Below the pieces are notes generated by a model. That model worked only from the letters and a program-made list of their open reading frames with translations. It did no database searches and had not been told where the DNA came from. Position numbers and translations under genes: made by a program. Shown piece by piece: positions 28,697 to 61,276 of a DNA stretch of 64,000 bases; within the stretch, counting starts at the first letter, position 1; every line of letters starts with the position of its first letter. The stretch covers positions 989,684 through 1,053,683 of the forward strand of contig NZ_KQ758903.1 in the NCBI RefSeq assembly GCF_001466665.1. Reading direction: 5' to 3'. The DNA comes from Dehalogenimonas alkenigignens. GTDB lineage: Bacteria; Chloroflexota; Dehalococcoidia; Dehalococcoidales; Dehalococcoidaceae.

Positions 28697-30100
28697 ATGA
28701 AGGGTTTCCATTCAACAATCAGCCGCCGGGACTTCATGAAATCGCTCGGAATCGCCGGAGCGGGAATCGGCGCCGCGGCGGCTGCCGGGCCGGCCTTCCA
28801 CGATCTGGATGAAATGGCCAGCGCCGGCAAACAGTCTCATGCCTGGTGGGTTAAAGAGCGCGACTATGAGAATATTACAACTGAGGTTGACTGGCAGACA
28901 TACAAGAACTTCGATGCTGTTGCTCATCCGGCTACCCCTGTTTCCGATGAAGTCAAGGCGGTCACAGCCGCCAGGGTAGCCAAGGATAAGGCCGACGGTC
29001 TGGCCGGTAAGGTTCCCGGCGCCGACCGACGAGGTTTTGCCTGGTACACGGCTGCAGGCCGCGGCGGTACAGCGCCGGCCTGGGATGGCGAGACCTCGTT
29101 CTGGAAACCTTCAGAAGGTGACGTCACTTCCCCTTACAATGAATCGCCCGAATACAACACCCAGGTCATGAGAGCCGCCCTTCACTCTTTCGGCACCCCG
29201 GCGGTGGGGGTCGTCGAACTCACGCCTAACATTAAAAAGTTGTTCAACAAAGATCTTATCTCCTGGGAAGACCGGAACGATGCCGTTCTTGATGGGAAAG
29301 TGTACCGGTTCCCCAACAAGTACAAATACATGCTGGTCTGGGAAACCCAAATGTCTGCTACCCAAGCGACCTATAACTACAAGGCTGACGATTCTAATCC
29401 CTCCGGCTACGGCTCATCGGTTCCTATCGGCCGTATGGATGCTCAAGGCTACAATTACGGCCGCGTGGTGATGGCTCAGGCGACGTCGTTCTTAAAGGGC
29501 CTAGGGTATGCAGCCGTCCGGCCGGGGTCCAGTTTCTTCCTCCAGAACTCCGCCTACGGCATCTTTGCCGGCCTTTCAGAGCAAGCACGCCCTAACTACC
29601 GCATGAGCCCGGGCTACGGCTTGTGCAGCCGGCAGGCTGACATTACCATTACCGATATGCCGCTGGCGCCGACCAAACCGATTGATTTCGGTGGCCATCG
29701 TTTTTGCAACACCTGTAAACGATGCGGCGAGGTCTGCCCCAGCCAGTCCATCGATATGAGGGACGAGCCTTCATGGGATACGGTAGTACCCAAAAACAAT
29801 CCGGGTATCAAGGCATTCTGGATGAACTGGGACACCTGCGCTGGCTTTGGCTCCCCGGTTAACTGCGGCATCTGTCAGCCGACCTGCCCGTTCAACCATC
29901 CGACCGAAGCCATCATCCACCCGGTGGTACGAGCAACCGCGGCAAATACCGGCATTTTCAACAAGTTCTTCGCCGATATGGATAGGGTTTTCGGCTACGG
30001 CAAAGTCCGCTCCGCCGAGGAGATGGAAGCCTGGTGGACCCGCGATCTGGCCACCTATAAGGGTGATACCATCTTAGGCTCCGGCAAATACATCTGGTAA
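28697..30100 (+). CDS. rdhA: reductive dehalogenase catalytic subunit (rdhA-1)
   Basis: A 467-residue corrinoid/Fe-S enzyme that would remove halogen from an organohalide as terminal electron acceptor on the outside of the membrane. The Tat signal has SRRDFMKSLGIAG at about residues 10-22. Two cluster motifs are C-x2-C-x2-C-x3-CP (CNTCKRCGEVCP, about 337) and C-x8-C-x2-C-x3-CP (ending CGICQPTCP). The middle region has the corrinoid-binding dehalogenase fold elements (GTPAVGVVEL, DMPLAPTKPIDFG). No rdhB follows: a terminator comes after 20 bases. Unlike the other four rdhA genes, its leader lacks the GANAGA hairpin. The substrate cannot be predicted. Confidence 0.95.
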   Translation: MKGFHSTISRRDFMKSLGIAGAGIGAAAAAGPAFHDLDEMASAGKQSHAWWVKERDYENITTEVDWQTYKNFDAVAHPATPVSDEVKAVTAARVAKDKADGLAGKVPGADRRGFAWYTAAGRGGTAPAWDGETSFWKPSEGDVTSPYNESPEYNTQVMRAALHSFGTPAVGVVELTPNIKKLFNKDLISWEDRNDAVLDGKVYRFPNKYKYMLVWETQMSATQATYNYKADDSNPSGYGSSVPIGRMDAQGYNYGRVVMAQATSFLKGLGYAAVRPGSSFFLQNSAYGIFAGLSEQARPNYRMSPGYGLCSRQADITITDMPLAPTKPIDFGGHRFCNTCKRCGEVCPSQSIDMRDEPSWDTVVPKNNPGIKAFWMNWDTCAGFGSPVNCGICQPTCPFNHPTEAIIHPVVRATAANTGIFNKFFADMDRVFGYGKVRSAEEMEAWWTRDLATYKGDTILGSGKYIW

Positions 30101-30120
30101 ATCCACCGACAGCAGCTACT

Positions 30121-30156
30121 AGGTGGGGGCAGGCGCAAGCCGCCCCCACCTTTTTA
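30121..30156 (+). terminator. intrinsic terminator of rdhA-1
   Basis: A G+C-rich hairpin (AGGTGGGGGC / GCCCCCACCT with CAGGCGCAAG between) is followed by TTTTTAT. It ends the rdhA-1 transcript and separates it from the methyltransferase gene. Confidence 0.85.
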
Positions 30157-30224
30157 TAATAAGTGGCCTCGCAAACAATGGAGCGATATACTGTGGGATC
30201 CACACTTCTTTTTTAAAAACGCGT

Positions 30225-31256
30225 ATGGAAAACAAGCAGAAACACGATCTATTTAATTTGCCATTTATCACTGAAGCCGGATTGGCCATCGAACTCGGCT
30301 GGGTGTTTCGGAATTCGCGGGTACTTCTGGCAGCCTATCAGGCCGGGTTTTTCGAAGCGCTTCGCCAACCAAAAAGCGCCGGCGAGTTAGCCGCTGAATG
30401 CAGTACCGACGCCGAAGTAAGCGAGAAAGTGTTGATCGCGATGTGTGCCCTTGGCGTCTTGAAACGGACAGGGAGCCTGTTCGATCTGACACCGCTGGGG
30501 CGTGAAATCCTGCTGCCCGAGAGCCTGCGATATATCGGCGGGGCGCTGGACTTCAGCGAGTATATGTGGTGGGAATGGTCGGTTCTACCAGATATGCTTA
30601 AAGGCGGGGAAAAATACGCCCGGCGTTTCCGCCAGATTAAAGAACTCCAGCGGGATGCCGAATATATAATCAAGACCGATTATTTCCCGCTGGCGATGCA
30701 CACCAAAGCGATCAACGGCGGGGTGCAGTTCGTTGCCGCCCATGTCGATCTGAGTAAAAGGCGCCTGCTGCTGGATATCGGCGGCGGCCCTGGGACGTAC
30801 AGTGCCGGGTTGTGCCAGCGCTTCCCCAACTTGAAAGCGATCGTTTGGGATGCGCCCGGCCCACTGGCTGTTGCCAGGCAGGTAATCCGGAATCTGGGTT
30901 TGGAAGATCGGATCAGGCTGGAAACAGGCGACTGGGAAACCGACGAATTCAGCCCCGGATGCGATGTCATACTACTGTCAAATGTGATGCACGGCCCGGA
31001 CAGCGGCGCGGCGGAAAAGCTGGCCAAAGTTTTCCGAGCGCTGGATCCGGGCGGGGTGATTATTGTCCAGGAATTCCTGCTTGATGCCGATAAAAACGGG
31101 CCGCTGGAGGCGGCAGTGTTCAACATCATGGTCGGTGCTTTTTCCGATATCGAACTGATAGGGTTGATCGGAACGGCCGGGTTCAGAGAGGTAGCATTGG
31201 TTGCCCGGAACCCATTGACAGGCAGCGGTCTCATCACCGCCGTCAAGCCAGGTTGA
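30225..31256 (+). CDS. SAM-dependent O-methyltransferase, ASMT/BchU-like
   Basis: A 343-residue protein starting at ATG 30225. An N-terminal winged-helix dimerisation domain (about 20-105: AAYQAGFFEALRQPKSAGEL ... GVLKRTGSLFDLTPLGRE) precedes a Rossmann methyltransferase domain with the SAM loop LLLDIGGGPGTYSAGL (about 182-197), an acidic IVWDAPG and LLSNVMHG, the usual catalytic-His position of plant-type O-methyltransferases. BchU and other small-molecule methyltransferases share this form. It is followed 24 bases later by the U32-like gene, probably one operon. The substrate is unknown. Confidence 0.83.
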   Translation: MENKQKHDLFNLPFITEAGLAIELGWVFRNSRVLLAAYQAGFFEALRQPKSAGELAAECSTDAEVSEKVLIAMCALGVLKRTGSLFDLTPLGREILLPESLRYIGGALDFSEYMWWEWSVLPDMLKGGEKYARRFRQIKELQRDAEYIIKTDYFPLAMHTKAINGGVQFVAAHVDLSKRRLLLDIGGGPGTYSAGLCQRFPNLKAIVWDAPGPLAVARQVIRNLGLEDRIRLETGDWETDEFSPGCDVILLSNVMHGPDSGAAEKLAKVFRALDPGGVIIVQEFLLDADKNGPLEAAVFNIMVGAFSDIELIGLIGTAGFREVALVARNPLTGSGLITAVKPG

Positions 31257-31280
31257 GGAAACTGTTTGGGAGAAGGGTCA

Positions 31281-32495
31281 ATGGAGCTTGAAAAACGATT
31301 CTCGATAGCTCATTTCGACAGTTGGCCTGGGGACCTGACTTATTACGAAGCAATCAGTAATTCATCCCCGGAGTTCCGCCGGGAGATTCATGACATCTAC
31401 TTCGGGAAGATATTCCGCTGCAACTATCGCGAACAGGAACAGTGGGACGACCGCCAGAAGCTGCACGAAGTTACCTACGGCAACGTCATGGGGGTTGAAG
31501 CCACCGATGCGCAGGTCGCCCAGTTATTCCGCATCCAGTCCGAGTTCGGCATCCAGGTGTCGCTGACCATCAACCAGTTGAATGTTCCCGTAGAAATATT
31601 TTATAGCCGCGGCGACCGGGTGGCGCGGGATTTCATCGAGTGGTTGGGCGGCTACTACGATAGGGGCTTACGGAGCTGTACCCTGGCTAACAATCACCTG
31701 ATGCGCACCGGCATGCTCCGGAAAATGTTCCCGGAGATGACCTGGAAAAACACTGTTAACCAGCAGGTGACGACAGCGCAGCAGGTCATTGATTATCTCT
31801 ACCTGGGATATGACACCATTCAACTTGACCGGTCATTGAACCGCAACCTGGGCGAGCTCAGGCGGATCCGCCGGGCGGTCGAAACCTTCAGACTAAAACA
31901 CCCTGAACGAAATGTCCGAACCTGCATGCTGGTGTGGGAGGACTGTCTGCCCTCCTGCCCGTTTAAACGGGAGCATGACGATTTGCAGCCCTATCATCGA
32001 AGGGTCAATTACTGGAAGAGCGGCCCTGGCGCCGGCACATGTTCCCGATGGCGGGACAGCGCAACGGGAAAAAGCCTGTTACCACGCGCCGGCAATAACT
32101 GTTATTGGGTCACGCAGCAGACATTCCAGGAGTACGCAGCGCTGGTGGATGTGTTTAAGTTCAGCGGGCGCCTGACAGAATATACACCGCTGAGCGGCGA
32201 CGGGAAGCTTCAGTTCGGGTGGAGCGCGCGGAACAACGCCGTGTCTTCATTCGGCGAGATCCTTAACCACTCCCTCCTGCCGGTGAGCGCCTGGTCTCTG
32301 GGTGCCTTTAAAATGGCCCCGTTTGAGCGGAATCCCGAGAAAATCAGGCGGGACCTGAGCGGCAGCCTGTGGCTGACGGACGCCGGGTTGAAACTTGAAG
32401 AGAAGCTTACCACCTGCCGCAGCCAGTGCCTTGAGTGTCATCTCTGCGAACGTACTTTCGGGATGCCTGATATAGATTCGCTGGTAGCAATTTAG
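31281..32495 (+). CDS. U32 peptidase-like (UbiU/UbiV/RlhA superfamily) protein
   Basis: A 404-residue protein starting at ATG 31281 after AGAAGGG. It has a TIM-barrel-like layout with the U32-style segment VNQQVTTAQQVIDYLYLGYDTIQLDRSL and a cysteine group EDCLPSCPFKREHDD resembling the Fe-S-ligating CxxxC of U32 proteins. A further cluster, CRSQCLECHLCERTFG, is at the C-terminus. U32 relatives UbiU/UbiV and RlhA carry out oxygen-independent hydroxylations with 4Fe-4S clusters, while others are called collagenase-like peptidases. Pairing with an O-methyltransferase suggests hydroxylation followed by methylation, which is inference. The family call itself rests on motif pattern only. Confidence 0.6.
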   Translation: MELEKRFSIAHFDSWPGDLTYYEAISNSSPEFRREIHDIYFGKIFRCNYREQEQWDDRQKLHEVTYGNVMGVEATDAQVAQLFRIQSEFGIQVSLTINQLNVPVEIFYSRGDRVARDFIEWLGGYYDRGLRSCTLANNHLMRTGMLRKMFPEMTWKNTVNQQVTTAQQVIDYLYLGYDTIQLDRSLNRNLGELRRIRRAVETFRLKHPERNVRTCMLVWEDCLPSCPFKREHDDLQPYHRRVNYWKSGPGAGTCSRWRDSATGKSLLPRAGNNCYWVTQQTFQEYAALVDVFKFSGRLTEYTPLSGDGKLQFGWSARNNAVSSFGEILNHSLLPVSAWSLGAFKMAPFERNPEKIRRDLSGSLWLTDAGLKLEEKLTTCRSQCLECHLCERTFGMPDIDSLVAI

Positions 32496-32525
32496 AACGC
32501 CCCGGCACGGCGATATCGAAAAATA

Positions 32526-32562
32526 AAAAGAGGAGGGGATTAGCCCCTCCTCTTCTTATTAG
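32526..32562. terminator. bidirectional intrinsic terminator
   Basis: The hairpin AAGAGGAGGGG / CCCCTCCTCTT (loop ATTAG) lies between two convergent genes with A-rich and T-rich flanks. It can serve both the U32-like gene and the radical SAM operon. Confidence 0.8.
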
Positions 32563-32572
32563 CCGCTTGGAC

Positions 32573-34060
32573 TCAGGAAATCTTCGGTTTAGGCGCGATG
32601 CCGAGCGGCAGGCTGGAATCCTGGCTGCTCGATGAGAAGCCGGACAGTTTCCGCTGCACCGTCTTGTAGAACTTGTTGACCTGGCCGTGGAACTTGATCA
32701 GCTCCCCGACCTCCCGCAGGAACTTGAGCGGGTTCTTGAAAAGGGTCAGGAAATATTCGGGGTTGTGCTTCAGGGTGAACCTGATGCGCTGGGCGGCGTA
32801 GTTGGCGCGCCAGTTGGCCGCGGCCTCGGTCATCATTTCGGTGGGCACGTGGCTCAAGTTGATTTTATTAGCATACTCGATGAGGAATTCCGGCCAGTCG
32901 TCGAGGCGGGCCGGCGGCGTCACCACGCCCTGCGACACGCAGTAATCATAAAGGGCGCTGCCGGGGAAGGGGACGAAGCGGTTGTACATGTAATAGGGAT
33001 TGTCCAGCCGTTTCAGCATTTCATGAGTGGCGTTGAAGTCCTCGACAGTTTCGGTGGGGTAGCCGTAGATGATATAGACCGAGGTGCGGATCTTATGCTT
33101 GACCAGCGACCAGAAAGTCCGCTCCATCTCCGGTACGGTGATATCCTTCTGCATGAAGTCCAGGCCGCGCTGGCTGCCTGACTCCAGCCCCAGGCCGACG
33201 GCGACGCAGCCGGCTTTGGCCATCAGAGCGACATCGGCATCTGAGAGGTCGGCTCTGGAGTCGCAGTTCCAGGAGATATTAATCTTGCGCTCGATGAGGA
33301 GGTTGCAGAATTCGCGCAGTCTCTTGCGGTTGAAGGTGAAGTTGTCCTCGTCGAAGCGGATATATTTGGCGTCGTAGTGCTGGCGCAGGAATTCGATCTG
33401 GGAGATGATCCGTTCGGCGGAAAGGTAGCCAATGTAACCCTTGTTGTAGGCCTTGTTGTAGCAGAAGGCGCAGCGGTGGACGCAGCCGCGGGAGGTGTTG
33501 ATGCCGATCATGGAGTACTTCTTCACCGGCACCAGATGCCAGGCCGGGTCCGGCAGCGCTTCCAGGTCCTTGATGAACGGGCGGGGCTCGTTAATGACCA
33601 TCTGGCCGTCGATCTTGAAGCCGAGGCCTTTGATGTCGTTGAGTTTCCGATCGCCCTTTTCCAGGTAATCGATCAGTTCGGCCAGGGTGTACTCGCCGGC
33701 GCCGATGACGACGTAGTCGATATACGGCTCGGACAGGGTCTGTTTCGGCAGAACGCTGGTATGGACGTTGCCCCAGACGATCGGCACAGCCGGGAACAAA
33801 GCCCGAAACTGCTTTGACTGGAGAATAGCGCCTTCCAGGTTGGGGCCGGTGATGACCGAGAAGCCGATCAGCTGCGGTTTGAAATCGATGAAATCTTCAG
33901 GCTTACGTTCGTCCACGAAGCCGTCGTAGACCTTGACCTCGTGGCCCAGCTGCTCAAGGTACGAGGCGAGGTAGAGCAGTCCCTTGGGCAGGTTGGTGTA
34001 AGCCTTAGCGTAATACGCGGAATAATTGGGATTGGGTGAAGTCACTAACAGGACTCTCAT
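32573..34060 (-). CDS. B12-binding-domain radical SAM protein (BchE-like class)
   Basis: A 495-residue protein with an N-terminal cobalamin-binding Rossmann domain (MRVLLVTSPNPN ... PQLIGFSVITG ... VVIGAGEYTL, about 1-135) and a radical SAM domain whose cluster cysteines are C193, C197 and C200 (SRGCVHRCAFC). LGLESGSQRGLDFMQKD is the typical later strand. Relatives include BchE cyclase and many B12-dependent methylases. No D-x-H-x-x-G motif is visible in the B12 domain, as in other class B members. It is the last gene of the rdhA-2 operon, overlapping the preceding radical SAM gene by 4 bases. Confidence 0.88.
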   Translation of the reverse strand: MRVLLVTSPNPNYSAYYAKAYTNLPKGLLYLASYLEQLGHEVKVYDGFVDERKPEDFIDFKPQLIGFSVITGPNLEGAILQSKQFRALFPAVPIVWGNVHTSVLPKQTLSEPYIDYVVIGAGEYTLAELIDYLEKGDRKLNDIKGLGFKIDGQMVINEPRPFIKDLEALPDPAWHLVPVKKYSMIGINTSRGCVHRCAFCYNKAYNKGYIGYLSAERIISQIEFLRQHYDAKYIRFDEDNFTFNRKRLREFCNLLIERKINISWNCDSRADLSDADVALMAKAGCVAVGLGLESGSQRGLDFMQKDITVPEMERTFWSLVKHKIRTSVYIIYGYPTETVEDFNATHEMLKRLDNPYYMYNRFVPFPGSALYDYCVSQGVVTPPARLDDWPEFLIEYANKINLSHVPTEMMTEAAANWRANYAAQRIRFTLKHNPEYFLTLFKNPLKFLREVGELIKFHGQVNKFYKTVQRKLSGFSSSSQDSSLPLGIAPKPKIS

Positions 34061-34926
34061 GGGGCGGATACCTCCTCGGGTTCTAGAATTTGATGCAGGA
34101 TTTGGTCCGGACGGCGGTTTAAGCCCTCGGCGGCGGCCAGATATCTGGCTGAATCGGCGCCGGCGCCGGGGCAGGCTTCGGCGGGGAAGACGTTGTAGAT
34201 GGGGTATTTGAGGGCTTCATCGCCTCGGAAGTGAAAAACGCGGGAGAGGTGCTTCCTGACCAGGCCGGCAGCCTGGTCCATCTCTTCAGCAGTAGCCCGG
34301 CGCCACGGGTTGTTGCCGACCGGGAAGTAGGGCAGCAGGATGAAAGGGATGTTTTGATCTCGGGAGGCGACAAACTCGGCGACGCGCTCGACCTCGGCGG
34401 CGTCGATATAGCCCGGGATAAGCACTGTATCCACGACTATTTTTTTAGCCATGGCGATCAGCCGGTCGAAGTTCTCAAGGGTGGGGCGGTTGGAAGCCCC
34501 GGTGTAATCCAGGTGCAGCCGGTCATCCATCGCCTTGAGGCCGACCTCAACGGTGTCGGTGAAATTGAGGTCGGGCAGCATCGCGGCGTTGGTGACCAGG
34601 GTCACCCTGGCGCCGTAGCGGCGGCGCAGCATTTCGGTGAACGCCGGGTAAGCGGGGTCCAGGCCGGCTTCCTGACCTTCGATGACCACCGAATGGAAAT
34701 CGAGCTTATCGAGGATAGCCTCGACTTCAGCCAGCGTCAGGAACTTTTCCGGCGGGCTGGCAAGGACTTCGGGCTGGCGCTTCAGCATGCCGCCGAAGTC
34801 CAGCATCGGGCTGTAGATTTGGGTAGAGCAGTAGCAGCCGCGGCACTGGAAATTGCAGCCCCAGAAATGGACGCAGACATCCTTCTGCTCCGGCGTGTAG
34901 GTGATATGGTAGATGCAGGTCTTCAT
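34057..34926 (-). CDS. radical SAM protein (activase-like), rdh operon
   Basis: A 289-residue radical SAM enzyme with cluster cysteines C24, C28 and C31 in FWGCNFQCRGC. A fourth and further cysteine follow at once (CYC), and the SAM-contact segments are VVIEGQEAGLDP and VTLVTNAAMLPD. It resembles pyruvate-formate-lyase-activase-type proteins without extra ferredoxin domains. It is a clear paralogue of the C-terminal part of the gene at 35105 (shared YTPE, CRGCYC, YSPML, GYIDAAEVERVAEF-like blocks). ATGA overlaps occur at both ends. The substrate is unknown. Confidence 0.87.
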   Translation of the reverse strand: MKTCIYHITYTPEQKDVCVHFWGCNFQCRGCYCSTQIYSPMLDFGGMLKRQPEVLASPPEKFLTLAEVEAILDKLDFHSVVIEGQEAGLDPAYPAFTEMLRRRYGARVTLVTNAAMLPDLNFTDTVEVGLKAMDDRLHLDYTGASNRPTLENFDRLIAMAKKIVVDTVLIPGYIDAAEVERVAEFVASRDQNIPFILLPYFPVGNNPWRRATAEEMDQAAGLVRKHLSRVFHFRGDEALKYPIYNVFPAEACPGAGADSARYLAAAEGLNRRPDQILHQILEPEEVSAP

Positions 34927-35090
34927 GACCGGCGTCCGAAACCGCCTTCAAGGTAAGGTTCTATAGGCGGGCAGGCATCGGGCCAGGGCGGCACGGCGCG
35001 GTTATAGGCGGCAGCCTGGCGTTCCAGCACCAGGTATAACGCCGAGCCGAGGATCGAGGCTATGCACAGTATCCAAAGCAGAATCATCAT
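34923..35090 (-). CDS. 55-residue single-helix membrane peptide in the rdh operon
   Basis: A short gene between the two radical SAM genes, behind GGAGGCG. Residues 1-22 form a membrane helix (MMILLWILCIASILGSAL), followed by a polar, Pro-rich tail ending GGFGRRS. Its stop overlaps the next start by ATGA. It is too short and has too few helices to be a normal RdhB (usually about 90 residues). A 32-residue membrane peptide at 44144 is a possible analogue. A membrane tether or assembly role is inference. Confidence 0.6.
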   Translation of the reverse strand: MMILLWILCIASILGSALYLVLERQAAAYNRAVPPWPDACPPIEPYLEGGFGRRS

Positions 35091-35104
35091 TACGCCGCCT
35101 CCGG

Positions 35105-36238
35105 CTACTTCATTCCTACGGAAGATAAAAGGGCGTTGAGGTTGGGTTCGTACGAAGCGCCGCCGGCACCCTCGGGGAAGGCGGAGAAGACTTCATACTT
35201 AAGTTCTTCGTTGCCGCGGAAGAAGAAGACATTTTTAAGGTGCTTGCGGGCGGCTTCGGCGGCTTTTTCCATTTCCTCGGTGGTCGGCCGCCGCCAGGGG
35301 TTGTCGCCGGCTTTGAAGTACGGCAGAATGACGAACAGCATGTCCTTCTTGACGCCGGCGATGAATTCGGCGATGCGCTCAATCTCATCCACCTCTATAT
35401 AGCCGGGGATGTAAACCGATTCCACGAAGGTATTCTTGCCTGACTGGACGAGTTTCCGGAGGTTATCAAGCACCGGTTTGTTGGAAACGCCGGTGTAATC
35501 GATATTGAGTTCATCGGTCACCGCCTTGATGCCGACTTCGACCCGGTCGATGTGAGACAAATCGGGCAGCTCTATGCCGTTGGTCAGCAGCAGGTTGTGG
35601 CTCTTGTAGCGCTCGTGGAGCAGCCGGGCGATGTTGGGCAGTTCGGGGTCCATGGCGGCCTCCTGGCCTTCGAAGACCACGCTGGTGAATTCATACTGGT
35701 CGAGAATGGCCAGCAGTTCGTCGATAGTCAGGAACTTTTCCGGCGCCGGCGCGATGCCGGACGGCTCTTCGACGTGTTTGCCGAGGAAATCCTTGAGCAT
35801 GGGGCTGTAGACGCGGCGCTTGCAGTAGCAGCCGCGGCATTCGATGTTGCAGCCCCAGAAGAAGAGGCAGATCTCTTTAAGTTCCGGCGTGTAAGCCACG
35901 TGGTAGACGCGAGTCCTGGCCCAGCCGTCGTGGTAGACGCCGAGCTTTTTGAATTCGTTGATGATGATCTCGGCGTTCTGGTTGAAGCTGACCATCGGCT
36001 CGACTTTGAACTCCGAGAGGCAGTACATCGGGAAGTCGATCAGGTGCTTGATGAGCTCCTCGTGCGATTCGACGTTGAAGACGAGGAAGCCGCCGCCCGC
36101 GGTGAAGCTGTAAGCCGATTCGAGGATGCCTTCGGCGATCTTGCGGTCGATCCACTCCTGGCTCTTGCGCAGGAACATCACCTTGGTCTTGTAGTCCGGG
36201 GGGTAAACTATCTGTTTGCCGGTGGCGTAGTATTTCAT
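35105..36238 (-). CDS. fusion of a muconolactone isomerase-like domain to a radical SAM domain
   Basis: A 377-residue protein starting at ATG 36238 (MKYYATGKQIVYPPD). Residues 1-85 read like the ferredoxin-like alpha/beta fold of muconolactone delta-isomerase-type proteins (KSQEWIDRKIAEGILESAYS, GGFLVFNVESHEEL, YCLSEFKVEPM). Residues 105-377 are a radical SAM domain with C130, C134 and C137 (FWGCNIECRGC) and strong similarity to the protein at 34057. The open frame continues upstream, but that part covers a hairpin. It lies 79 bases downstream of rdhB in the same operon. The function is unknown; cofactor or protein modification linked to the dehalogenase is possible. Confidence 0.8.
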   Translation of the reverse strand: MKYYATGKQIVYPPDYKTKVMFLRKSQEWIDRKIAEGILESAYSFTAGGGFLVFNVESHEELIKHLIDFPMYCLSEFKVEPMVSFNQNAEIIINEFKKLGVYHDGWARTRVYHVAYTPELKEICLFFWGCNIECRGCYCKRRVYSPMLKDFLGKHVEEPSGIAPAPEKFLTIDELLAILDQYEFTSVVFEGQEAAMDPELPNIARLLHERYKSHNLLLTNGIELPDLSHIDRVEVGIKAVTDELNIDYTGVSNKPVLDNLRKLVQSGKNTFVESVYIPGYIEVDEIERIAEFIAGVKKDMLFVILPYFKAGDNPWRRPTTEEMEKAAEAARKHLKNVFFFRGNEELKYEVFSAFPEGAGGASYEPNLNALLSSVGMK

Positions 36239-36276
36239 TTTCTTTCCTCTATGCGCGACTGTTGCGTGAACCGGGG

Positions 36277-36308
36277 TCGAGAAGGAGGAGAAGTCTCCTC
36301 CTTCTCGA
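36277..36308 (-). promoter_or_regulatory. perfect 14-bp hairpin between rdhB and the radical SAM genes
   Basis: TCGAGAAGGAGGAG (36277-36290) and CTCCTCCTTCTCGA (36295-36308) are perfect complements around a 4-base loop. On the minus strand no T-run follows, so simple termination is unlikely. It may stabilise or process the mRNA, setting rdhAB expression above that of the downstream genes. Confidence 0.75.
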
Positions 36309-36316
36309 AGGACCAA

Positions 36317-36610
36317 CTAGGCGGTTGCCTTGCGGCGCATGATCAGGGCGGCGGCGACACCCAGCAACAGGAGGGCGGGGATGCCGACGACAACCAGGAA
36401 CAGGGAAGCGGCTTCTTCTTCGAACTCGGAAAGGGAGCCGAAGTAGTTCTGGATGGCGAAGAAGCCCATGAGCAGGGCGATGCCGATGATGACCCAGTCA
36501 TACCACTTGGTCACCTTGCCCTTTTTGCTAAGGAACATGCCCAGAGCAATCAGCAGGCCGACGGCGACGGCGGCCATGAGGAACCAGAAGGGACCCTGAT
36601 AAACAGTCAT
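36317..36610 (-). CDS. rdhB: reductive dehalogenase membrane anchor RdhB
   Basis: A 97-residue membrane protein with three helices (about 8-27, 37-56 and 71-90). It has the RdhB features WYDWVIIGIALLMGFFAIQNYFGS and an acidic FEEEA segment facing the outside before the last helix, then a basic RRK end. It holds RdhA on the outer face of the membrane. It lies 24 bases after rdhA-2 and is the only rdhB in the window. Confidence 0.92.
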   Translation of the reverse strand: MTVYQGPFWFLMAAVAVGLLIALGMFLSKKGKVTKWYDWVIIGIALLMGFFAIQNYFGSLSEFEEEAASLFLVVVGIPALLLLGVAAALIMRRKATA

Positions 36611-36634
36611 TTTGCCATTACTCCTTTCTCTGAC

Positions 36635-38161
36635 CTACCGGCCTTTCCAGGCGGTCTTGACGGTATCGATGCCCATCATTGGCAGGGACATATCCCACCA
36701 CTCTTCAGGGCTGTCCATGTTGCCGTAGCCGAAAACCTCGCCCATGGTGGCGAAGAAGCTGTTGAACAGCGGGGTGACGGAGATAGTCTGCTTGACCAGG
36801 GCATGGACCATGGCGGCCTGATCGACGGAGAAGGTGCAGTAGCCCCAGCACTGGCTGCAGCCGGAGGCCTCGGAGCGGTACTCCTGGCAGAGAATGAAGT
36901 TGTTCCAGAAAGCTTTGATGCCTTTGTTGTGGAAGGTAACTTCCTTGCCTTCATAAGGCGGGATCTCCCAGGTGGGCTCTTTGTGGGACTCGATGCAGCC
37001 GGGCGGGCAGTTGATGGCGCAGAAGCCGCAGGTCTTGCAGAACTTCCACATGCCGGCGTCGACCGGCGGGGTGGGCGCCAGCGGCAGGTTGGTCTGGAAG
37101 GTAGTGGGGTAGGTGGCGTTGCCGTATTCGGCGTTCAGGCCGTAGTTCTGCTGCCGGGACTGCTCATTGATGCCGGTGAGCTGGTTGGCCATGTTCTCGT
37201 TGAACGGCGAACTCTGGTGGCCGGTGTCGGAGTAGCATTCGTAACCCAGAGAACGCAGGAAGCGGAAGGTGCCGCCGTAGACGAACGAGCTCAGCGTGCC
37301 GCCGGTGCCGTTGGGTCCGGGGAAGCTGGAGCCGTATCCGGCTTCGGCATTGGGGGTCTTGAGGAACTGGCTGGCGACGGGGCTGATGGTGGTGATGATC
37401 CACAGGGGCTTGTTGGGGAAGACGTACTTGGAGCCGTCAGAAGTGGCGTAACCCTTGTCGACATTCTCGAACTCATAGCGCAGCGACTCGGCGTCGGACG
37501 GCAGGGCGCCGTTGTTGCTGCTCCATTCCTTGGTGGCGCCACGGGTGGTGTACTTGACGAGGACTTTGTCCTTCCAGGTTTGATCAAACTCAGCATAGCC
37601 GTTAAGGACAGAGCCGTAGTAGCGCATGGCAGCGTTCATCATCTTGGAGGCTTCTTCCGGAGTGCCGGTCCACTTTGGGAGACCGAGCTCTTCCGGCGTC
37701 TTGGACTCAGTGTAGCTGTTGGAGCCGGACTTGACCGGGCCGGTCCAGGTCTTGGACCAGGTGAAGTTGTGGAGGTTGGCGCTATGGAGCATGCGGGTGC
37801 GGAGGGTATAACCGGGGGCCTGTTCAGCCTGGCGCTTGGCCGAAATTGCGGCGCCCTTGGCGGAAGCCGCTTCACGGCGGTTCCAGGTCTCGGTGAAGTA
37901 GGACTTGATGCGGGTGGTCTGCGACTGCCAGCGGCGGTCGTAGCGGTTGATGGCGCTCCAGTCATGCTCGACGGCGGGATCCAGGAAAGCGCGCTCCTTG
38001 ACGAACCAGGGGCGCTTCTGAATGGCGGCGGTGGAGGACATCAGTTCATCCACGTCGTGGAAGTTGGGCGCTACCAGGCTGGCAGCCCCGATGCCCGCAC
38101 CGGCCAAGCCGAGATTTTTCATAAATTCCCGGCGGGATACCGTGCTGTGGAAGATAGACAT
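36635..38161 (-). CDS. rdhA: reductive dehalogenase catalytic subunit (rdhA-2)
   Basis: A 508-residue corrinoid/Fe-S reductive dehalogenase. Tat signal SRREFMKNLGLAGAG (about 9-23), then mature-start HPW-like RPWFVKERAF. Cluster motifs are CKTCGFCAINCP (CxxCxxCxxxCP) and C-x9-C-x2-C-x3-C (ending CSQCWGYC, where the usual final Pro is Thr). GYGSSFPGPNG and LPLAPTPPVDAG lie in the conserved core. It is the first gene of a six-gene operon with rdhB, three radical SAM genes and a membrane peptide. Three tandem leader hairpins precede it. Confidence 0.96.
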   Translation of the reverse strand: MSIFHSTVSRREFMKNLGLAGAGIGAASLVAPNFHDVDELMSSTAAIQKRPWFVKERAFLDPAVEHDWSAINRYDRRWQSQTTRIKSYFTETWNRREAASAKGAAISAKRQAEQAPGYTLRTRMLHSANLHNFTWSKTWTGPVKSGSNSYTESKTPEELGLPKWTGTPEEASKMMNAAMRYYGSVLNGYAEFDQTWKDKVLVKYTTRGATKEWSSNNGALPSDAESLRYEFENVDKGYATSDGSKYVFPNKPLWIITTISPVASQFLKTPNAEAGYGSSFPGPNGTGGTLSSFVYGGTFRFLRSLGYECYSDTGHQSSPFNENMANQLTGINEQSRQQNYGLNAEYGNATYPTTFQTNLPLAPTPPVDAGMWKFCKTCGFCAINCPPGCIESHKEPTWEIPPYEGKEVTFHNKGIKAFWNNFILCQEYRSEASGCSQCWGYCTFSVDQAAMVHALVKQTISVTPLFNSFFATMGEVFGYGNMDSPEEWWDMSLPMMGIDTVKTAWKGR

Positions 38162-38334: not shown

Positions 38335-39750
38335 TTATCTGTGTTTTAACAGCTCCACATCCACGACGCCGGTGTTGGCCGGGTTGTCCCAGAATTCCTC
38401 CGGATGCCGGGTTCCGAAGCCAAACTGCTCGTGCATGTCCGCGAAAAAGCCATTGAACATCGGTGTGATCGTCGAGGTAATGCGAACCAGATCATGGACC
38501 GACGCATTAGTGAAAGAGTTGAACGGGCAGGTGGTATGGCAGTTCTTGCAGCGCGGACATCTGAAGTTGTACAACCGCCACCCTTTGTAGCCGGGTGTGT
38601 AGTTTTTAGCCGCTTCTTCCTCCGGGTCCTCATGGTCCCAGCGTTTGTCACCAAGGGGCATTGATTCATAAGGGCACATGGTGGCGCAGGTGGCGCAGTT
38701 GACGCAGAAACGAGCGATGCCGGCGTCGAACGGTTTGGTGGGGGCTAGCGGCATATCGGTGATCATGCGGTGCATGCCGCGCTGCATATTGCCGTAGCGG
38801 TAATGGGTGGCAACCATGCTGGCGCGGGAATGTTCACCTAAGCCAGAGAAGGCTGAGAAGGAATCCGAGGCGCTGGCGCCGGCGATTTCCAGGTGCTGGT
38901 AACCCAAGGCGCCGATAAAGTAGTGCGCCAGGTTGATAACCCTGTAGTAAAGATCGTAGCCGTTCCAGTTCGGGGCCGGGGCGCAGCGTGTCTGCGAGGC
39001 TTCCAGAGTGCTGAAGGTGACCACGTATTTGGCTTTGTTGGGGATGGCGAACTCGGATTTGGTGTCTTCGGCAACATCTACATCTTTGAAATTGTATGGT
39101 TTACCCGAGGTGTTGTTGAGATAAATGAGCCTCTTGGTTTTTTCAGTGAGTTCGACGACGCCAACCTCGGAAGCGCCATACATTCGGAGCGCATTCTGCA
39201 GGGTGAGGAAGTTCTCTTCAGGAGTCCCCTGCCACTTGGTCATATTGCGGCTTTCCGGGGTCGGGATAGTCACTGAGGTGGTGACACCGAGGAAGTTGGG
39301 CGTGGGGGTAAACGGATGGCCGATACCGCCTGAAGCAGCGGTGGCGCCGGTAAGCGCATAATCCCGGATAGTCGGGCCTTTGTATGACGGATACAGGTTT
39401 TTCATGTACTGGATATCCCAGCCTTCCGCCTTCATCTTGACGGTTTTGGCAACTTTGGGATTGATGTCAGCATGGGCGGCAACGGTGGCGGTTACCGGGA
39501 AGGTAACGCCAAGCACCTTACGGGTGCGGTCAACCCGCTGGAAGACGTTCCAGTCAATCTCGACGGTGGGATCCTCGAGTTCGCGCTCCTTCACGTACCA
39601 GGGATGGCGCTGCGGGTTGGCGGTTGCGGTCAGTTCATCGATGTCATGAAAAGCCGGAGCGACAGCGGCGGCGGCTCCCAAACCGGCTCCAGCCAGACCG
39701 AGTCCCTTCATGAACTCGCGGCGGCTGAACGTAGTGTGGAATTTGGACAT
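38335..39750 (-). CDS. rdhA: reductive dehalogenase catalytic subunit (rdhA-3)
   Basis: A 471-residue reductive dehalogenase with Tat signal SRREFMKGLGLAGAG and mature start HPWYVKERELEDP. Cluster motifs are CVNCATCATMCP and CPRCKNCHTTCP. It is a close paralogue of rdhA-4 at 42164: long shared blocks include TVEIDWNVFQR, PYNFKDV, and PGYKGWRLYNFRCPRCK. No rdhB adjoins. Its own leader has one GANAGA hairpin. It ends 80 bases before the rdhA-2 leader. The substrate is unknown. Confidence 0.95.
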   Translation of the reverse strand: MSKFHTTFSRREFMKGLGLAGAGLGAAAAVAPAFHDIDELTATANPQRHPWYVKERELEDPTVEIDWNVFQRVDRTRKVLGVTFPVTATVAAHADINPKVAKTVKMKAEGWDIQYMKNLYPSYKGPTIRDYALTGATAASGGIGHPFTPTPNFLGVTTSVTIPTPESRNMTKWQGTPEENFLTLQNALRMYGASEVGVVELTEKTKRLIYLNNTSGKPYNFKDVDVAEDTKSEFAIPNKAKYVVTFSTLEASQTRCAPAPNWNGYDLYYRVINLAHYFIGALGYQHLEIAGASASDSFSAFSGLGEHSRASMVATHYRYGNMQRGMHRMITDMPLAPTKPFDAGIARFCVNCATCATMCPYESMPLGDKRWDHEDPEEEAAKNYTPGYKGWRLYNFRCPRCKNCHTTCPFNSFTNASVHDLVRITSTITPMFNGFFADMHEQFGFGTRHPEEFWDNPANTGVVDVELLKHR

Positions 39751-39920: not shown

Positions 39921-40181
39921 TCAAACCAGCAAAAACGACCAGGCCATGAAGGCGATGTCATGGAACTGGGGGTATTTGTTTTCCGGCAGCAGGTGAAGGA
40001 AAGCCAGGACATCCGGTTTGGCCTCATTGCGGCGGGCCTGGCACACCAGATCATGCTTGCTGGCAGGGTAGGAGATGCCGTCGAGGCAAGTTTCCAGATC
40101 GGCGACGGACATATCCAGGCAGCGGCGGAATCCGGGCGGGGTGGCGCTTTCCGGTGATTTTCGGTCCAGTGTAATCGTCAT
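39921..40181 (-). CDS. DUF2795-like small protein (downstream of nrdJ)
   Basis: An 86-residue protein; ATG 40181 has GGAGG at the right distance (an ATG two codons earlier is too close). The core LETCLDGISYPASKHDLVCQARRNEAKPDVLAFLHLLPENKYPQF follows the DUF2795 pattern (hydrophobic-G-x-x-Y/F-P-A-x-K-x-[DE]-[LI] ... A ... N/G-A ... L ... LP). The C-terminus IAFMAWSFLLV is hydrophobic. It lies 12 bases after nrdJ. A second, diverged copy is at 43834; both are near rdhA genes. The function is unknown. Confidence 0.65.
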   Translation of the reverse strand: MTITLDRKSPESATPPGFRRCLDMSVADLETCLDGISYPASKHDLVCQARRNEAKPDVLAFLHLLPENKYPQFHDIAFMAWSFLLV

Positions 40182-40193
40182 ATGCATTCCTCC

Positions 40194-41972
40194 TCATGGG
40201 CTTTGAAATAATGCTTTGACCAGTTCCAGCCCGGTCTGGCTGGTGCACAGGGGCTGCAGTTCCCGGCTTTCGTCGCGGTAAACGGTGATGCCCTTGAGGC
40301 CCTGCTCCCAGGCCATCTCGAATACCCTGGCGATATCCTCCCGCCTGGCGTCATGGGGGAAGTTAACCGTCTTGGACACGGCGTTGTCGGTATGACGCTG
40401 GAAGGCGGCCTGAATGCGCACGTGCCACTGCGGCGATACCCGGTGGGCGGTGACGAAAACCTTACGGACATCCTCCGGGACGTCTTTTCTATCCTGGAGG
40501 TGGTTGGAGGTGACCAGCTGCTCGATCAGCTCCGGGGTGAAAAAGCCCCGCTCTCTGGCGACTTCCTCGAAGTAAGAATTGACCTCAAGGAGGTTCTCGC
40601 CGTCGAGGATGTTTCTCACAAACACGGTAGCGAAGATCGGCTCGATGCCCGATGACACCCCGGCGATGATCGACAGGGTGCCGGTGGGGGCGATGGTGGT
40701 GCAGCAGGCGTTGCGCATGGGGAGGTCACTCTTCTCATAGACGCTGCCCTCCCAGGCAGGGAAGGCGCCGCGGGCAAGCGCCAGTTCACGGGAAGCCTCA
40801 TGAGCTTTATCGTTAATGAACTCCATGACCTCTTCGGCCACCGAGATAGCCCGGGTGGAGTTGTAGGGGATGCCCAGGCGGATGAGCATGTCGGCAAAGC
40901 CCATGACCCCCAGGCCGATCTTCCTGGTACGCCTGGTGGCCGCCTCCACAGCGGGCACCGGGAACCTGTTGATATCGATGACGTTGTCGAGGAATCTGAC
41001 GGCGGTTTTAACCACCCGCGCCAGCCGGTCGTAATCTATGGACAGTGTCCCGCTGTCCCGGCCCAGCATGCGGACGAGGTTGATGGAGCCGAGGTTGCAG
41101 GACTCGTAAGGCAGTAATGCCTGCTCGCCGCAGCCGGTGACCGTCTCCATGCGGCCGAGGCAGGGGGTGGGGTTGTCGCGGTTGACCCGGTCGGTGAAGA
41201 CAAGCCCCGGATCGCCGGTGCGCCAGGCCTGGTCGATGATGCGGGCAAATACCGACCGGGCGTTAAGGTTTCCGGTTTCCTCCCCGGTATTGGGGTCGAT
41301 TAATGCGTAATCCGATCCGGCTCTAACCCGGTTCATGAAGTCATCGGTGACCGAGACGGAGTTGTAGAAGTTGGTCAGGACGTTGGGATCGGACTTGGCT
41401 TTGATGAAATGGAGGATGTCCGGGTGGGTGACGCTCATGACCACCGAGTTGCAGCCGCGCCGGACGCCGCCCTGGCGGATGTAATCGGCCGCGCCGGCAA
41501 TAACGTGAATGAGGGCTACCGGGCCGCCGGCGGCATCCAGGTGCTCGCCGACAGCGGCGCCCCTGGGCCGGACTCTGGAGACATCGAAGCCGATGCCGCC
41601 GCCGCTTTTATGGATGAGAGCGGTGTACTTCACCGCGTCGAAGGTCTCTTCAATGGAATCCGGTACCGGCAGGACGAAGCAGGATGACAGCTGGCCGACC
41701 TCGGTGCCGGCGTTAAGGAGGGTGGGGGAGTTGGGCAGGAATTCAAGCGAGGTCATCAGCCGGTAGAACTCGCCGGCCATGATGTCGGTGTCGACCAATG
41801 GGTCATAGATTAGTTCAGCGGAAGCAACGGCCTGGGCGACGCGGCGGAACATCTCTTCCGGCGTTTCTATAAGCTCGCCCCGGCGGTTACGCCGGAGGTA
41901 GCGCTTCTCCAGTACCCTGAGGGCATTGGGAGTAAGCGCCGGGCGGGTTTCTTTAATTATATCGATGACCAT
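40194..41972 (-). CDS. nrdJ: adenosylcobalamin-dependent (class II) ribonucleotide reductase
   Basis: A 592-residue enzyme making deoxyribonucleotides with a B12-derived radical. SLEFLPNSPTLLNAG, GQLSSCFVLP (redox Cys), SGGGIGFDVSRVRPRGA, YESCNLGSINLVRM (active-site Cys region) and APTGTLSIIAGVSSGIEP are all present. No ATP-cone is seen. The C-terminus stops soon after KGITVYRDESRE with a single Cys; the usual C-terminal zinc-ribbon / CxxC redox tail is absent. A perfect 146-bp repeat ends 37 bases upstream of the start. Confidence 0.94.
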   Translation of the reverse strand: MVIDIIKETRPALTPNALRVLEKRYLRRNRRGELIETPEEMFRRVAQAVASAELIYDPLVDTDIMAGEFYRLMTSLEFLPNSPTLLNAGTEVGQLSSCFVLPVPDSIEETFDAVKYTALIHKSGGGIGFDVSRVRPRGAAVGEHLDAAGGPVALIHVIAGAADYIRQGGVRRGCNSVVMSVTHPDILHFIKAKSDPNVLTNFYNSVSVTDDFMNRVRAGSDYALIDPNTGEETGNLNARSVFARIIDQAWRTGDPGLVFTDRVNRDNPTPCLGRMETVTGCGEQALLPYESCNLGSINLVRMLGRDSGTLSIDYDRLARVVKTAVRFLDNVIDINRFPVPAVEAATRRTRKIGLGVMGFADMLIRLGIPYNSTRAISVAEEVMEFINDKAHEASRELALARGAFPAWEGSVYEKSDLPMRNACCTTIAPTGTLSIIAGVSSGIEPIFATVFVRNILDGENLLEVNSYFEEVARERGFFTPELIEQLVTSNHLQDRKDVPEDVRKVFVTAHRVSPQWHVRIQAAFQRHTDNAVSKTVNFPHDARREDIARVFEMAWEQGLKGITVYRDESRELQPLCTSQTGLELVKALFQSP

Positions 41973-43833: not shown

Positions 43834-44112
43834 CTAGTCCTGACCGAACATGTAAGAGCTGACGAAAACAGTGAAACTGATGTCCGCCGCCGACCGGAAT
43901 TGGCGCGACGGCAGGCGGTTGATGAAGAAATCCATGACATAGCCCGGCGCGCCGCCGGCTTCGGCATGGGCGATGATTTCACCTTTTACAGCGGGGTAAT
44001 GAAGGCCACGAAGGTAGTATTCCAGAGTGACCGAGTTCATCTTCGGCGGCTCAAGCAAGGCCTCGGCGGCGCGGGTCTCAACCTTGACGGCCGGCTTTTC
44101 CATAATCATCAT
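43834..44112 (-). CDS. DUF2795-like small protein (upstream of rdhA-4)
   Basis: A 92-residue protein; ATG 44112 lies after GAGGAATAACGCG. The segment LEYYLRGLHYPAVKGEIIAHAEAGGAPGYVMDFFINRLPSRQF follows the DUF2795 spacing (G-x-x-Y-P-A-x-K ... A ... GAP ... LP-x-x-x-F), and the protein ends with a hydrophobic FTVFVSSYMFG. It resembles the protein at 39921 in plan but is well diverged. The function is unknown. Confidence 0.6.
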   Translation of the reverse strand: MMIMEKPAVKVETRAAEALLEPPKMNSVTLEYYLRGLHYPAVKGEIIAHAEAGGAPGYVMDFFINRLPSRQFRSAADISFTVFVSSYMFGQD

Positions 44113-44143
44113 CGCGTTATTCCTCACTGTCTTTTATTTCCGG

Positions 44144-58513: not shown

Positions 58514-59839
58514 CTACTGAAGTGATTCGACCAGTTGATCCAGTGTCAATTCTTTGCTGATATAACAGCGATAAGCGCTAACCTGATCAATTGCCCCAGA
58601 TTGACTGAGGCACCCGCCGGCGCAATGGTAACGGCAGAAGCAGTTTCGGCATTCACTGAGACTATCGATGTTTCTTGATCTCAAAATAGATTGTGTTTCA
58701 GAGTTGAAAATAAAGTGCCTCGTGTCGTTCTCATAGCTGCCATGGAAAAACAGTCCATCCTGAGGATTCTGTGGGTTGGTTCTCATATAACAGGCAGTGA
58801 CCATCCCGGAGGGAGTTACGTTAAAGGCCGGATCGGTGGCGTAACAATAGCTTTTTCGAATGGACCCAACTCGTGCACTGCTGAATTCGATTCTAATACC
58901 ATGTTCCTGCCCCAACTTCTTTACTGCTCTGAATGCGACGAGGAAACGATCGGCATCTAAGATATCAAGATCATTTCCCCTGCCTTGTTGATAAAATGGC
59001 TCGAGGTAAATGGCCTCAAAGCCCGATCGACCGGCCAGGATATTTATTATTCCAGGGAAGTATTGAAGGCTGTCTGCGGTAACTGTGGATAAGATCCAAT
59101 ACTTTTTGCCGATTTTATCGAGATAGTTGAAGGTTCTCAGAACATCCTTGTAACTGCCCTGTCCATTGCGCTTCGGCCTATGTTTGTCATGAATTTCTTT
59201 TGGGCCGTCCCAGGAGATACAGAACTCATCAACATGTTCAACCAGCCAGGCTAATCTATTTATTGAAGTTACACCGTTGGTGGTTATGCCGATATACTTT
59301 TCGATGCCTTCCAGTTTCACTCTGGATTCAAAATACTCGACCGTTGTCTGTAACATAGACCAGGCACATATCGGTTCACCTCCGCCATGGAACTGGAGAT
59401 GGGCGATGGAATGATCTTCGGAGGCGTTTTTAATTATTAGGTCAATTGCAGCGCGGGCAACAGGCTCACTCATGGTTTGGGGTACTTTGTTGTTATGGGA
59501 ATAACAGTACACGCAATTTAGATTACAAACATCTGTGAGCAGCAACCCCACTCGTGTAGGACGATAATCTGATGGTTCTTGAACATCAGGACTGTCAAGA
59601 ATGGGCTCGCGGATTAACAAGCCCTTGGTTGACAGCGCATTGATGAATTCTCGGTCCTCAGAAGTCTTGGGAGTAAAACCCTTTTCGTTGAGAGCTTGCA
59701 TAATCGGTATTGCAGCCTGATTCAGGCTTAAGACCTGATGACTCTTAGGAAAATAGGCTATTAGAAGTTCATCATGTTCAACTAGAAAGCACTTCTCAAC
59801 AAAATGCCCCGCATTTTGTCCGGCAGACAAGCTTTTCAT
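58514..59839 (-). CDS. radical SAM/SPASM peptide-modifying enzyme
   Basis: A 441-residue enzyme. The N-terminal 80 residues look like a PqqD/RRE-type peptide-recognition domain (HQVLSLNQAAIPIMQALNEK ... FINALSTKGLLI). The radical SAM core has C105, C109 and C112 (CNLNCVYC) and LQFHGGGEPI. The C-terminal SPASM region has extra Cys (SYCYATDPAFNVTPSGMVTACY, CRNCFCRYHCAGGC) for two auxiliary 4Fe-4S clusters. Such enzymes modify ribosomal peptides, and a 38-residue candidate substrate lies 91 bases upstream. The chemistry (crosslink, epimerisation or other) cannot be told. Confidence 0.9.
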   Translation of the reverse strand: MKSLSAGQNAGHFVEKCFLVEHDELLIAYFPKSHQVLSLNQAAIPIMQALNEKGFTPKTSEDREFINALSTKGLLIREPILDSPDVQEPSDYRPTRVGLLLTDVCNLNCVYCYSHNNKVPQTMSEPVARAAIDLIIKNASEDHSIAHLQFHGGGEPICAWSMLQTTVEYFESRVKLEGIEKYIGITTNGVTSINRLAWLVEHVDEFCISWDGPKEIHDKHRPKRNGQGSYKDVLRTFNYLDKIGKKYWILSTVTADSLQYFPGIINILAGRSGFEAIYLEPFYQQGRGNDLDILDADRFLVAFRAVKKLGQEHGIRIEFSSARVGSIRKSYCYATDPAFNVTPSGMVTACYMRTNPQNPQDGLFFHGSYENDTRHFIFNSETQSILRSRNIDSLSECRNCFCRYHCAGGCLSQSGAIDQVSAYRCYISKELTLDQLVESLQ

Positions 59840-60571: not shown

Positions 60572-61276
60572 CTATAACCCTTGAAGGGTTAGATTATTCA
60601 CATACTGTGAAATAAGCGGAATAAGCTCATCGCTTTTTCGTGGTGTGTACTCGGGCGACTGGCTTAGAAGCACGTAGTCGAAAGGTTCTGTTGCGCGGAA
60701 ATTTTGCCACTGTACGATCTTAAATTCAGCCCCTTTATTAGGTTCCACTGCAAGGCCACATGATGTATTGAAGGGTACTGATTTTTTGCTTACTGGATCA
60801 TACTCTGGTAAATGGCTAGGAACCCAAGTTAATGAAGCGATCCAACCATAAGCGATCGCATAGGTCAAGTAATTGCCGGCGTTAATATATCCCTCTTCTA
60901 AAGGATTAGTCTGTTCTAATTTTTCAAAACACAGTTTACCCGAGATCAAGCGGAGACCGCCGCGAATTGTTAGGTCCGGGTGAGCGTCTACATGGATTAC
61001 ATCAAATGGTGTGTGTAAGGCTCCTGATTCAATCAACTTCCGCCATAATTCCAGCACCTGATGATGGCTCTCGACAATCGTTCCGGGAATTCGGACATAG
61101 CGTGAGAGGCCACATCGGCTTTCAAGGAAATGCCGCACCATGTCCTTCGGCCATGGCTTGTAACTGGAGCCTAAGCGTTTATTTTCGGCTCCAGAATAGT
61201 AGGGGTCTTTGTTCAGAAAAAGTCTAGATCTAGATCCAGAAAACGCATAGTCGTTCCTTTTGGTGACATACTTCAA
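60572..61276 (-). CDS. UPF0489 family protein
   Basis: A 234-residue protein with the UPF0489 hallmark VIHVDAHPDL (about 94-103), preceded by HHQVLELWRKLI and followed by INAGNYLTYAIAYGWI. The D-x-H motif suggests a metal-dependent arginase/deacetylase-like fold. The enzymatic role is unknown. It is coupled by a 4-base overlap to the zinc ribbon gene and is A+T-rich. Confidence 0.78.
   Translation of the reverse strand: MKYVTKRNDYAFSGSRSRLFLNKDPYYSGAENKRLGSSYKPWPKDMVRHFLESRCGLSRYVRIPGTIVESHHQVLELWRKLIESGALHTPFDVIHVDAHPDLTIRGGLRLISGKLCFEKLEQTNPLEEGYINAGNYLTYAIAYGWIASLTWVPSHLPEYDPVSKKSVPFNTSCGLAVEPNKGAEFKIVQWQNFRATEPFDYVLLSQSPEYTPRKSDELIPLISQYVNNLTLQGL

Follow-up and report, generated by a model that had tools for sequence, protein, structure and literature searches.

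Radical SAM genes on a reductive dehalogenase operon of Dehalogenimonas alkenigignens as a possible corrinoid-handling module

Introduction

Why should an operon that encodes a reductive dehalogenase (RDase) also carry three radical S-adenosylmethionine (radical SAM, rSAM) genes? The question is raised by a 64,000-nucleotide stretch of the closed 1.85 Mb genome of Dehalogenimonas alkenigignens (assembly GCF_001466665.1, contig NZ_KQ758903.1, positions 989,684 to 1,053,683; hereafter the window). Here, six genes run along the minus strand from 38161 down to 32573, in the order rdhA-2, rdhB, a domain fusion (rSAM-1), a gene for a small peptide, rSAM-2 and a gene for a B12-binding radical SAM protein (B12-rSAM). 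A preliminary description of this DNA had proposed that the three enzymes modify the dehalogenase, its corrinoid, or a dedicated cofactor or peptide. Genomic context favours the corrinoid branch of this proposal, with modification of the dehalogenase staying its main rival. We consider it possible, with a probability of about 45%, that an atypical dehalogenase has here acquired a module for handling corrinoids, which would tailor or load the cobamide of RdhA-2 before export by the twin-arginine translocation (Tat) system. This reading is preferred because a corrinoid is the simplest common denominator of rdhA, NrdJ, B12-rSAM, BtuFCD, CbiZ, CbiB, CobA and DUF71.

Genomic settings of the radical SAM families

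Neighbourhoods were selected by matches to the rSAM and B12-rSAM proteins and not by rdhA, and their genes were labelled by BLAST, with representatives confirmed by Pfam. The small rSAM family, represented by rSAM-1 and rSAM-2, is expanded in Dehalogenimonas and Dehalococcoides, with about eight copies in the host genome, and at least ten related B12-rSAM copies occur in several Dehalogenimonas genomes; the genome searches behind these counts may have missed some rSAM copies. No B12-rSAM match in Dehalococcoides passed an E-value of 1e-40. A corrinoid-related neighbour, counted as rdhA, adenosylcobalamin (AdoCbl)-dependent NrdJ, BtuFCD, CbiZ, CbiB, CobA, DUF71-B12 or B12-rSAM within five genes on the same strand, was found for 78 of 82 small rSAM genes, and at least two of the four exceptions lie on short contigs. 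In the six genomes counted, such a neighbour accompanies every small rSAM gene (53/53), compared with 36 of 152 control genes from the same G000 loci.

Small rSAM genes adopt several settings in Dehalococcoidales. They stand beside rdhA, often with B12-rSAM; they form the first gene of rSAM-BtuFCD-CbiZ-CbiB-CobD operons; and they occur in the arrangements rSAM-CbiZ-CbiB-CobA-nitrilase-NrdJ and rSAM-NrdJ. Outside this order, the family was found in only two of 400 genomes of the phylum, both with the arrangement BtuF-rSAM-BtuC-BtuD-CobA. A tighter alignment query of genome contigs returned six Dehalococcoidia loci, and a single-protein query returned no match. DUF71, predicted to function in B12 salvage and present in five copies in Dehalococcoides CBDB1 (PMC3541065), is a recurrent neighbour of the small rSAM genes. 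The B12-rSAM family is divided between rdhA and CbiZ settings, its paralogues pairing with CbiZ in six genomes.

Homologues of the small rSAM genes lie within corrinoid salvage operons (BtuFCD, CbiZ, CbiB, CobA, CobD; DUF71-B12) of Dehalococcoidia and two other Chloroflexota, and B12-rSAM paralogues adjoin CbiZ; the window operon differs from these operons in having neither a transporter nor an amidohydrolase gene. At the level of the family, the neighbourhoods are those of corrinoid salvage, while the window genes themselves adjoin rdhAB. In the papers found, the small rSAM has no assigned salvage step. No description linking rdhA or corrinoid/BtuF genes to radical SAM was found in the open-licence PMC literature, and the word 'radical' is absent from the main text of a 2026 comparative-genomics paper on Dehalogenimonas.

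Two further loci illustrate unusual clusters. At L076 (G036:C2:147001-167000), six small rSAM paralogues follow two rdhAB pairs and lead into a corrinoid salvage operon. At L080 (G027:C1:77001-97000), in a Dehalococcoides genome, a truncated 183-aa rdhA is followed by two small rSAM genes.

Phylogeny and cassettes without rdhA

On the rSAM tree, well-supported branches carry at least 14 changes of rdhA context, and the B12-rSAM tree shows at least 10; in the latter, most members of one clade of 14 are arranged B12rSAM(-B12rSAM)-CbiZ. Cassettes also persist without a dehalogenase gene. Genome G033 lacks the three rdhA genes of a syntenic locus in G032, with the same flanking genes and with rSAM and B12-rSAM intact. 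Loci L044 and L051 combine an rSAM gene with B12-rSAM genes in the absence of rdhA, and here the rSAM and the three leading B12-rSAM genes have ratios of nonsynonymous to synonymous substitution (dN/dS) of 0.03-0.10. Both cases speak against the rSAM enzymes being maturases reserved for the adjacent RdhA. The preliminary description would have been refuted by orthologous rdhA-free operons serving an unrelated pathway; rdhA-free copies do exist, but those with identifiable neighbours adjoin corrinoid genes.

A fourth, atypical B12-rSAM paralogue of these loci (L044:14949-16337, L051:7912-9300) has lost the CX3CX2C motif (RGGLYACTFF) in both strains and is still 88% conserved. Selenocysteine was considered for an in-frame TGA in an L044 B12-rSAM paralogue and dropped, as the alignment past the stop enters a tRNA gene.

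Proposed corrinoid handling

In the proposed scheme, a module comprising two small rSAMs resembling pyruvate formate-lyase activating enzyme (PFL-AE), a B12-rSAM and a small membrane peptide would have been placed on an rdhAB operon. Cobamide would be salvaged via BtuFCD and remodelled by CbiZ, DUF71 and CbiB; the rSAM enzymes would then chemically tailor, or otherwise prime, the salvaged cobamide in the cytoplasm. The tailored cobamide would be loaded into RdhA-2 together with the iron–sulfur (Fe-S) clusters, and the loaded enzyme exported by Tat and held by RdhB, possibly also by the 55-aa peptide.

Several points weigh against this scheme. Gene context cannot separate a corrinoid from a corrinoid protein as the substrate, given that rdhA and nrdJ both encode corrinoid proteins. 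The distances of rSAM and adjacent RdhA correlate (Mantel r 0.40, p 0.0004, 21 dereplicated pairs), and such co-divergence also fits a protein substrate. The window's rSAM-1 and rSAM-2 fall in a clade of 10 sequences (support 85/87) for which no setting other than rdhA was seen, and they may therefore have specialised. A cobalamin riboswitch was found nowhere in the window and, among seven loci scanned, only near the BtuFCD operon L046. Finally, we know of no described corrinoid tailoring step that needs a PFL-AE-like rSAM.

The active site of RdhA-2 and possible modification of the dehalogenase

RdhA-2 passes TIGR02486 (245.8 bits; cut-off 160.35), has a Tat signal above the TIGR01409 cut-off (20.6 versus 16.7 bits), and carries both Fe-S cluster motifs in its translation, FCKTCGFCAINCP and CQEYRSEASGCSQCWGYC. 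Its active-site residues were read by two methods from alignment to PceA and among 101 RdhAs. MAFFT and a hidden Markov model (HMM) of Tyr-bearing RdhAs agree in placing Gly288 at the position of the catalytic Tyr246 of PceA, and MAFFT and HMM alignments to PceA place Tyr351 at that of the active-site Arg305, a site where many other RdhAs in the alignment carry Gly. PceA Tyr246 is highly conserved, and its counterpart in NpRdhA is essential, with mutation inactivating the enzyme (PMC5500849). Among 25 RdhAs collected from the host genome, only RdhA-2, L169 (a Ser/Thr pair) and L174 (Asn/Asn) have both residues replaced, a count that leaves out RdhAs keeping Tyr with Gly or Ser in place of Arg.

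The last of these offers a comparison. The L174 RdhAB (L174:3295-4749) has an RdhA of 484 aa, the length encoded by a reported 1,455-bp dcpA homologue (PMC13274352), and the G031 homologue of L174 (94%) falls within the coordinates of the NSZ-14 dcpA island (PMC13390414). From its position, its length and its conservation, L174 is most probably DcpA, the 1,2-dichloropropane dihaloeliminating RDase. Like RdhA-2, it belongs to an RdhAB pair without both residues; unlike RdhA-2, with which it is only distantly related in the tree, it has no detected rSAM beside it. Dihaloelimination requires no proton. Since the probable DcpA also lacks Tyr and Arg, the absence of these residues is compatible with dihaloelimination and may characterize some dihaloeliminating RDases in general. 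RdhA-2 probably does not use PceA-like protonation, and because the dihaloeliminating probable DcpA lacks both residues, the most economical guess from these alignments is that RdhA-2 catalyses a dihaloelimination-type or other proton-independent reduction.

The missing residues are also what gives weight to the strongest alternative, which we nevertheless regard as unlikely: that the target of the rSAM enzymes is the RdhA-2 polypeptide itself, in which they might create a residue that replaces the missing Tyr or Arg, following the logic by which B12-rSAM enzymes modify methyl-coenzyme M reductase (MCR). The co-divergence described above also fits such an activity, and the B12-rSAM resembles the MCR Gln C-methyltransferase model (75.9 bits, far below the equivalog cut-off). 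Tyr-less RdhAs are moreover linked to rSAM genes more often (18/29) than are other RdhAs (18/72; Fisher p 0.001), in a sample that is phylogenetically non-independent and enriched for linked loci. However, Tyr loss maps to only about four places on the RdhA tree, and an independent-pairs comparison of Tyr loss with rSAM linkage comprised only four pairs, too few for statistical power. Other rSAM-linked RdhAs (L047, L063, L115) keep both Tyr and Arg, the probable DcpA lacks both without an rSAM, the same rSAM families adjoin BtuFCD/CbiZ and NrdJ without any RdhA, and the cassettes outlast the loss of adjacent rdhA genes.

Family assignment of the radical SAM proteins and the peptide

Both small enzymes pass PF04055 (rSAM-1 56.9 and rSAM-2 51.9 bits versus 29.5), rSAM-2 and the radical SAM domain of rSAM-1 share 52% identity, and CX3CX2C is kept in 79/79 aligned small rSAM sequences. 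The preliminary description had listed a domain fusion, and this is borne out in rSAM-1, where an N-terminal region of about 105 aa is joined to the radical SAM domain; its similarity to MIase/DUF3303 is weak (E 0.011, below cut-off). In the AlphaFold model of rSAM-1, pLDDT is under 60 over much of residues 1-110, so the structure search was restricted to the rSAM part, whose best PDB match is 3c8f (E 8e-12). With this match, the minimal rSAM fold and CX3CX2C, the small rSAMs resemble the PFL-AE family, but they fall far below all NCBIfam activase cut-offs (rSAM-2 best 42.9 versus 430; rSAM-1 best 37.9 versus 250) and the host genome holds no match to the glycyl radical enzyme family PF01228 at E up to 1. 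With no partner enzyme and scores so far below cut-off, identity as a glycyl radical activase was ruled out; by sequence, the small rSAMs are an unnamed family.

The B12-rSAM passes PF02310 (66.0 bits) and PF04055 (75.7 bits) and shares its architecture of B12-binding and radical SAM domains with BchE, BzaD, HpnJ, PhpK and MCR Gln C-methyltransferase, but scores far below every equivalog cut-off; its best NCBIfam score is to BchE (171 versus 481), with BzaD at 96 versus 450. The distance from BzaD, together with a single ThiC-family gene that passes the cut-offs for ThiC and not for BzaB, led the lower-ligand (bza) pathway to be rejected, no such pathway having been found.

Action on the upper ligand appears improbable. 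The small rSAMs would in that case form adenosylcobamide or strip imported ligands, and would stand near rdhA only where such loci act as corrinoid hubs. Adenosylated corrinoids are used by both NrdJ and CbiZ, and the association of the small rSAMs with these two and with BtuFCD agrees with this idea. Against it, the genome encodes CobA, whose gene also lies in many of these operons, adenosylcobamide is not used by RDases, and we know of no precedent.

There is an equally slim chance that the rSAMs serve to produce or mature the 55-aa peptide or some different small product, such as a ribosomally synthesized and post-translationally modified peptide (RiPP) or a lipid, with RdhA-2 serving that pathway rather than respiration. 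The rSAM genes beside a small open reading frame (ORF) do resemble RiPP loci, and the peptide, which is under purifying selection, is found in four operon copies. It is 93% identical in genome G035 (dN/dS 0.10) and 25/55 identical at the same place in locus L054 of G031, with a diverged homologue in L055. However, it starts with a transmembrane (TM) helix, lacks a leader/core layout and is poorly conserved toward its C-terminus, and most rSAM loci do not encode it. The genes around the small rSAMs are moreover corrinoid genes. Pfam and NCBIfam profile searches found no SPASM or RRE domain in rSAM-1 or rSAM-2, and a RiPP maturation system was set aside as unsupported on these grounds.

Organization and conservation of the operon

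All six genes lie on a single strand, as first described, and their features are collected in Table 1. ATGA overlaps had been reported among the last four genes; those of peptide/rSAM-2 and rSAM-2/B12-rSAM (4 nt) are present, but rSAM-1 and the peptide gene are separated by 14 nt, leaving two overlaps rather than three. The gap between rdhB and rSAM-1 is 78 nt. The likely rSAM-1 start is the ATG at 36238 behind AGAGGAAAG, for which a TTG at 36316 was dropped.

Table 1. Features of the rdhA-2 operon and its upstream neighbours in the window
Feature	Position	Strand	Remarks
rdhA-2	36635..38161	-	Tat-exported RdhA homologue, both Fe-S motifs kept; TIGR02486
rdhB	36317..36610	-	97-aa hydrophobic protein, putative membrane anchor; from position after rdhA and BLAST
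Intercistronic hairpin, 14-bp stem	36277..36308	-	Between rdhB and rSAM-1
N-terminal domain of rSAM-1, ~105 aa	35924..36238	-	Weakly MIase/DUF3303-like
Radical SAM domain of rSAM-1	35105..35923	-	CX3CX2CXC; minimal PFL-AE/NifB-like fold
55-aa single-TM peptide	34923..35090	-	PPWxDA motif; homologues in G035 and G031 L054, diverged in L055
rSAM-2	34057..34926	-	Paralogue of the rSAM-1 radical SAM domain
B12-rSAM	32573..34060	-	B12-binding radical SAM protein; PF02310 + PF04055
Terminator-like hairpin with T tail, operon end	32525..32554	-	3' of B12-rSAM
rdhA-3, upstream neighbour	38335..39750	-	Keeps Tyr and Arg
NrdJ-like ribonucleotide reductase, upstream	40194..41972	-	PF02867, PF00317; same strand; recurrent neighbour of small rSAM family

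The operon recurs in two other Dehalogenimonas genomes, with rSAM-1 97% identical in G035, and rSAM-1 and B12-rSAM 80-85% identical in G031; gene calls beyond the window were made with a simple ORF picker. The second G031 copy (L055) has no B12-rSAM and encodes the N-terminal domain as a gene of its own, and in G034 (L059) the arrangement is B12rSAM-domain-rSAM-rdhA, again with a separate domain gene. The rdhB product matched no Pfam family, but by BLAST it resembles the RdhBs encoded at other rdhA loci (66% to G031 L054). Across all six genes, dN/dS relative to G035 is 0.03-0.17; conservation of the operon is not due to chance, and all six genes are under purifying selection. Hitch-hiking, a chance proximity of expanded rSAM families to expanded rdhA genes without a functional link, is conceivable in Dehalogenimonas, whose genomes are rich in rdhA and can hold as many as ten or more B12-rSAMs each, but is very improbable given the near-universal corrinoid context, the repeated and independent origin of the rdhA association, the rSAM/RdhA co-divergence and an overlapping-gene operon kept under purifying selection in three genomes.

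Compared with the rdhAB(C/T/K/Z/E) operons of organohalide respirers, the window operon likewise encodes a Tat-exported TIGR02486 RdhA followed by a small membrane anchor, RdhB. It differs in its accessory genes, which encode two PFL-AE-like rSAMs, a B12-rSAM and a membrane peptide, and in an RdhA without equivalents of Tyr246 and Arg305.

The hairpin noted earlier at 36277 is real (folding z -2.74), and its stems in G035 and both G031 copies have altered sequence with full pairing retained, a compensatory change. No U-tract follows it in the window, G035 or either G031 copy, and a role in processing or stability therefore seems more likely than one in termination. The hairpin after B12-rSAM is U-tailed and terminator-like, though the total of such sites in the region is not above that in shuffles.

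Elsewhere in the window, two small DUF2795 genes adjoin NrdJ/rdhA genes (39921-40187 and 43834-44127, minus strand). A plus-strand trio (28697-32495), kept in G031 (L063) at 84, 66 and 72% identity, comprises rdhA, a gene for a BchU-like O-methyltransferase and one for a 409-aa protein that contains Cys and belongs to no family. On the minus strand, a SPASM-type radical SAM gene resembling peptide maturases lies near a UPF0489/peptide-arginase-like gene (58514-59839 and 60572-61276); it is PapB/nif11-like, below cut-off, and may mark an ornithine-type RiPP locus.

Implications

Organohalide respirers such as Dehalogenimonas are used in groundwater clean-up and depend on salvaged B12. A wider proposal, which we hold to be rather doubtful, is that the rSAM pathway makes a non-standard corrinoid, or a modified RdhA residue, that would enable RdhAs without Tyr and Arg to work by a mechanism unlike that of PceA and NpRdhA, whether dehalogenation or a new corrinoid reaction, and that the same rSAM family would be a missing corrinoid salvage step across Dehalococcoidia. 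The Tyr-less RdhAs, the probable DcpA included, make it directly testable whether dihaloelimination dispenses with a proton donor. If the corrinoid-handling reading is true, a radical SAM family without an assigned role, tied to corrinoid uptake, AdoCbl enzymes and dehalogenases alike, would fill a gap in corrinoid metabolism and could help to explain the many rdhA genes without known function.

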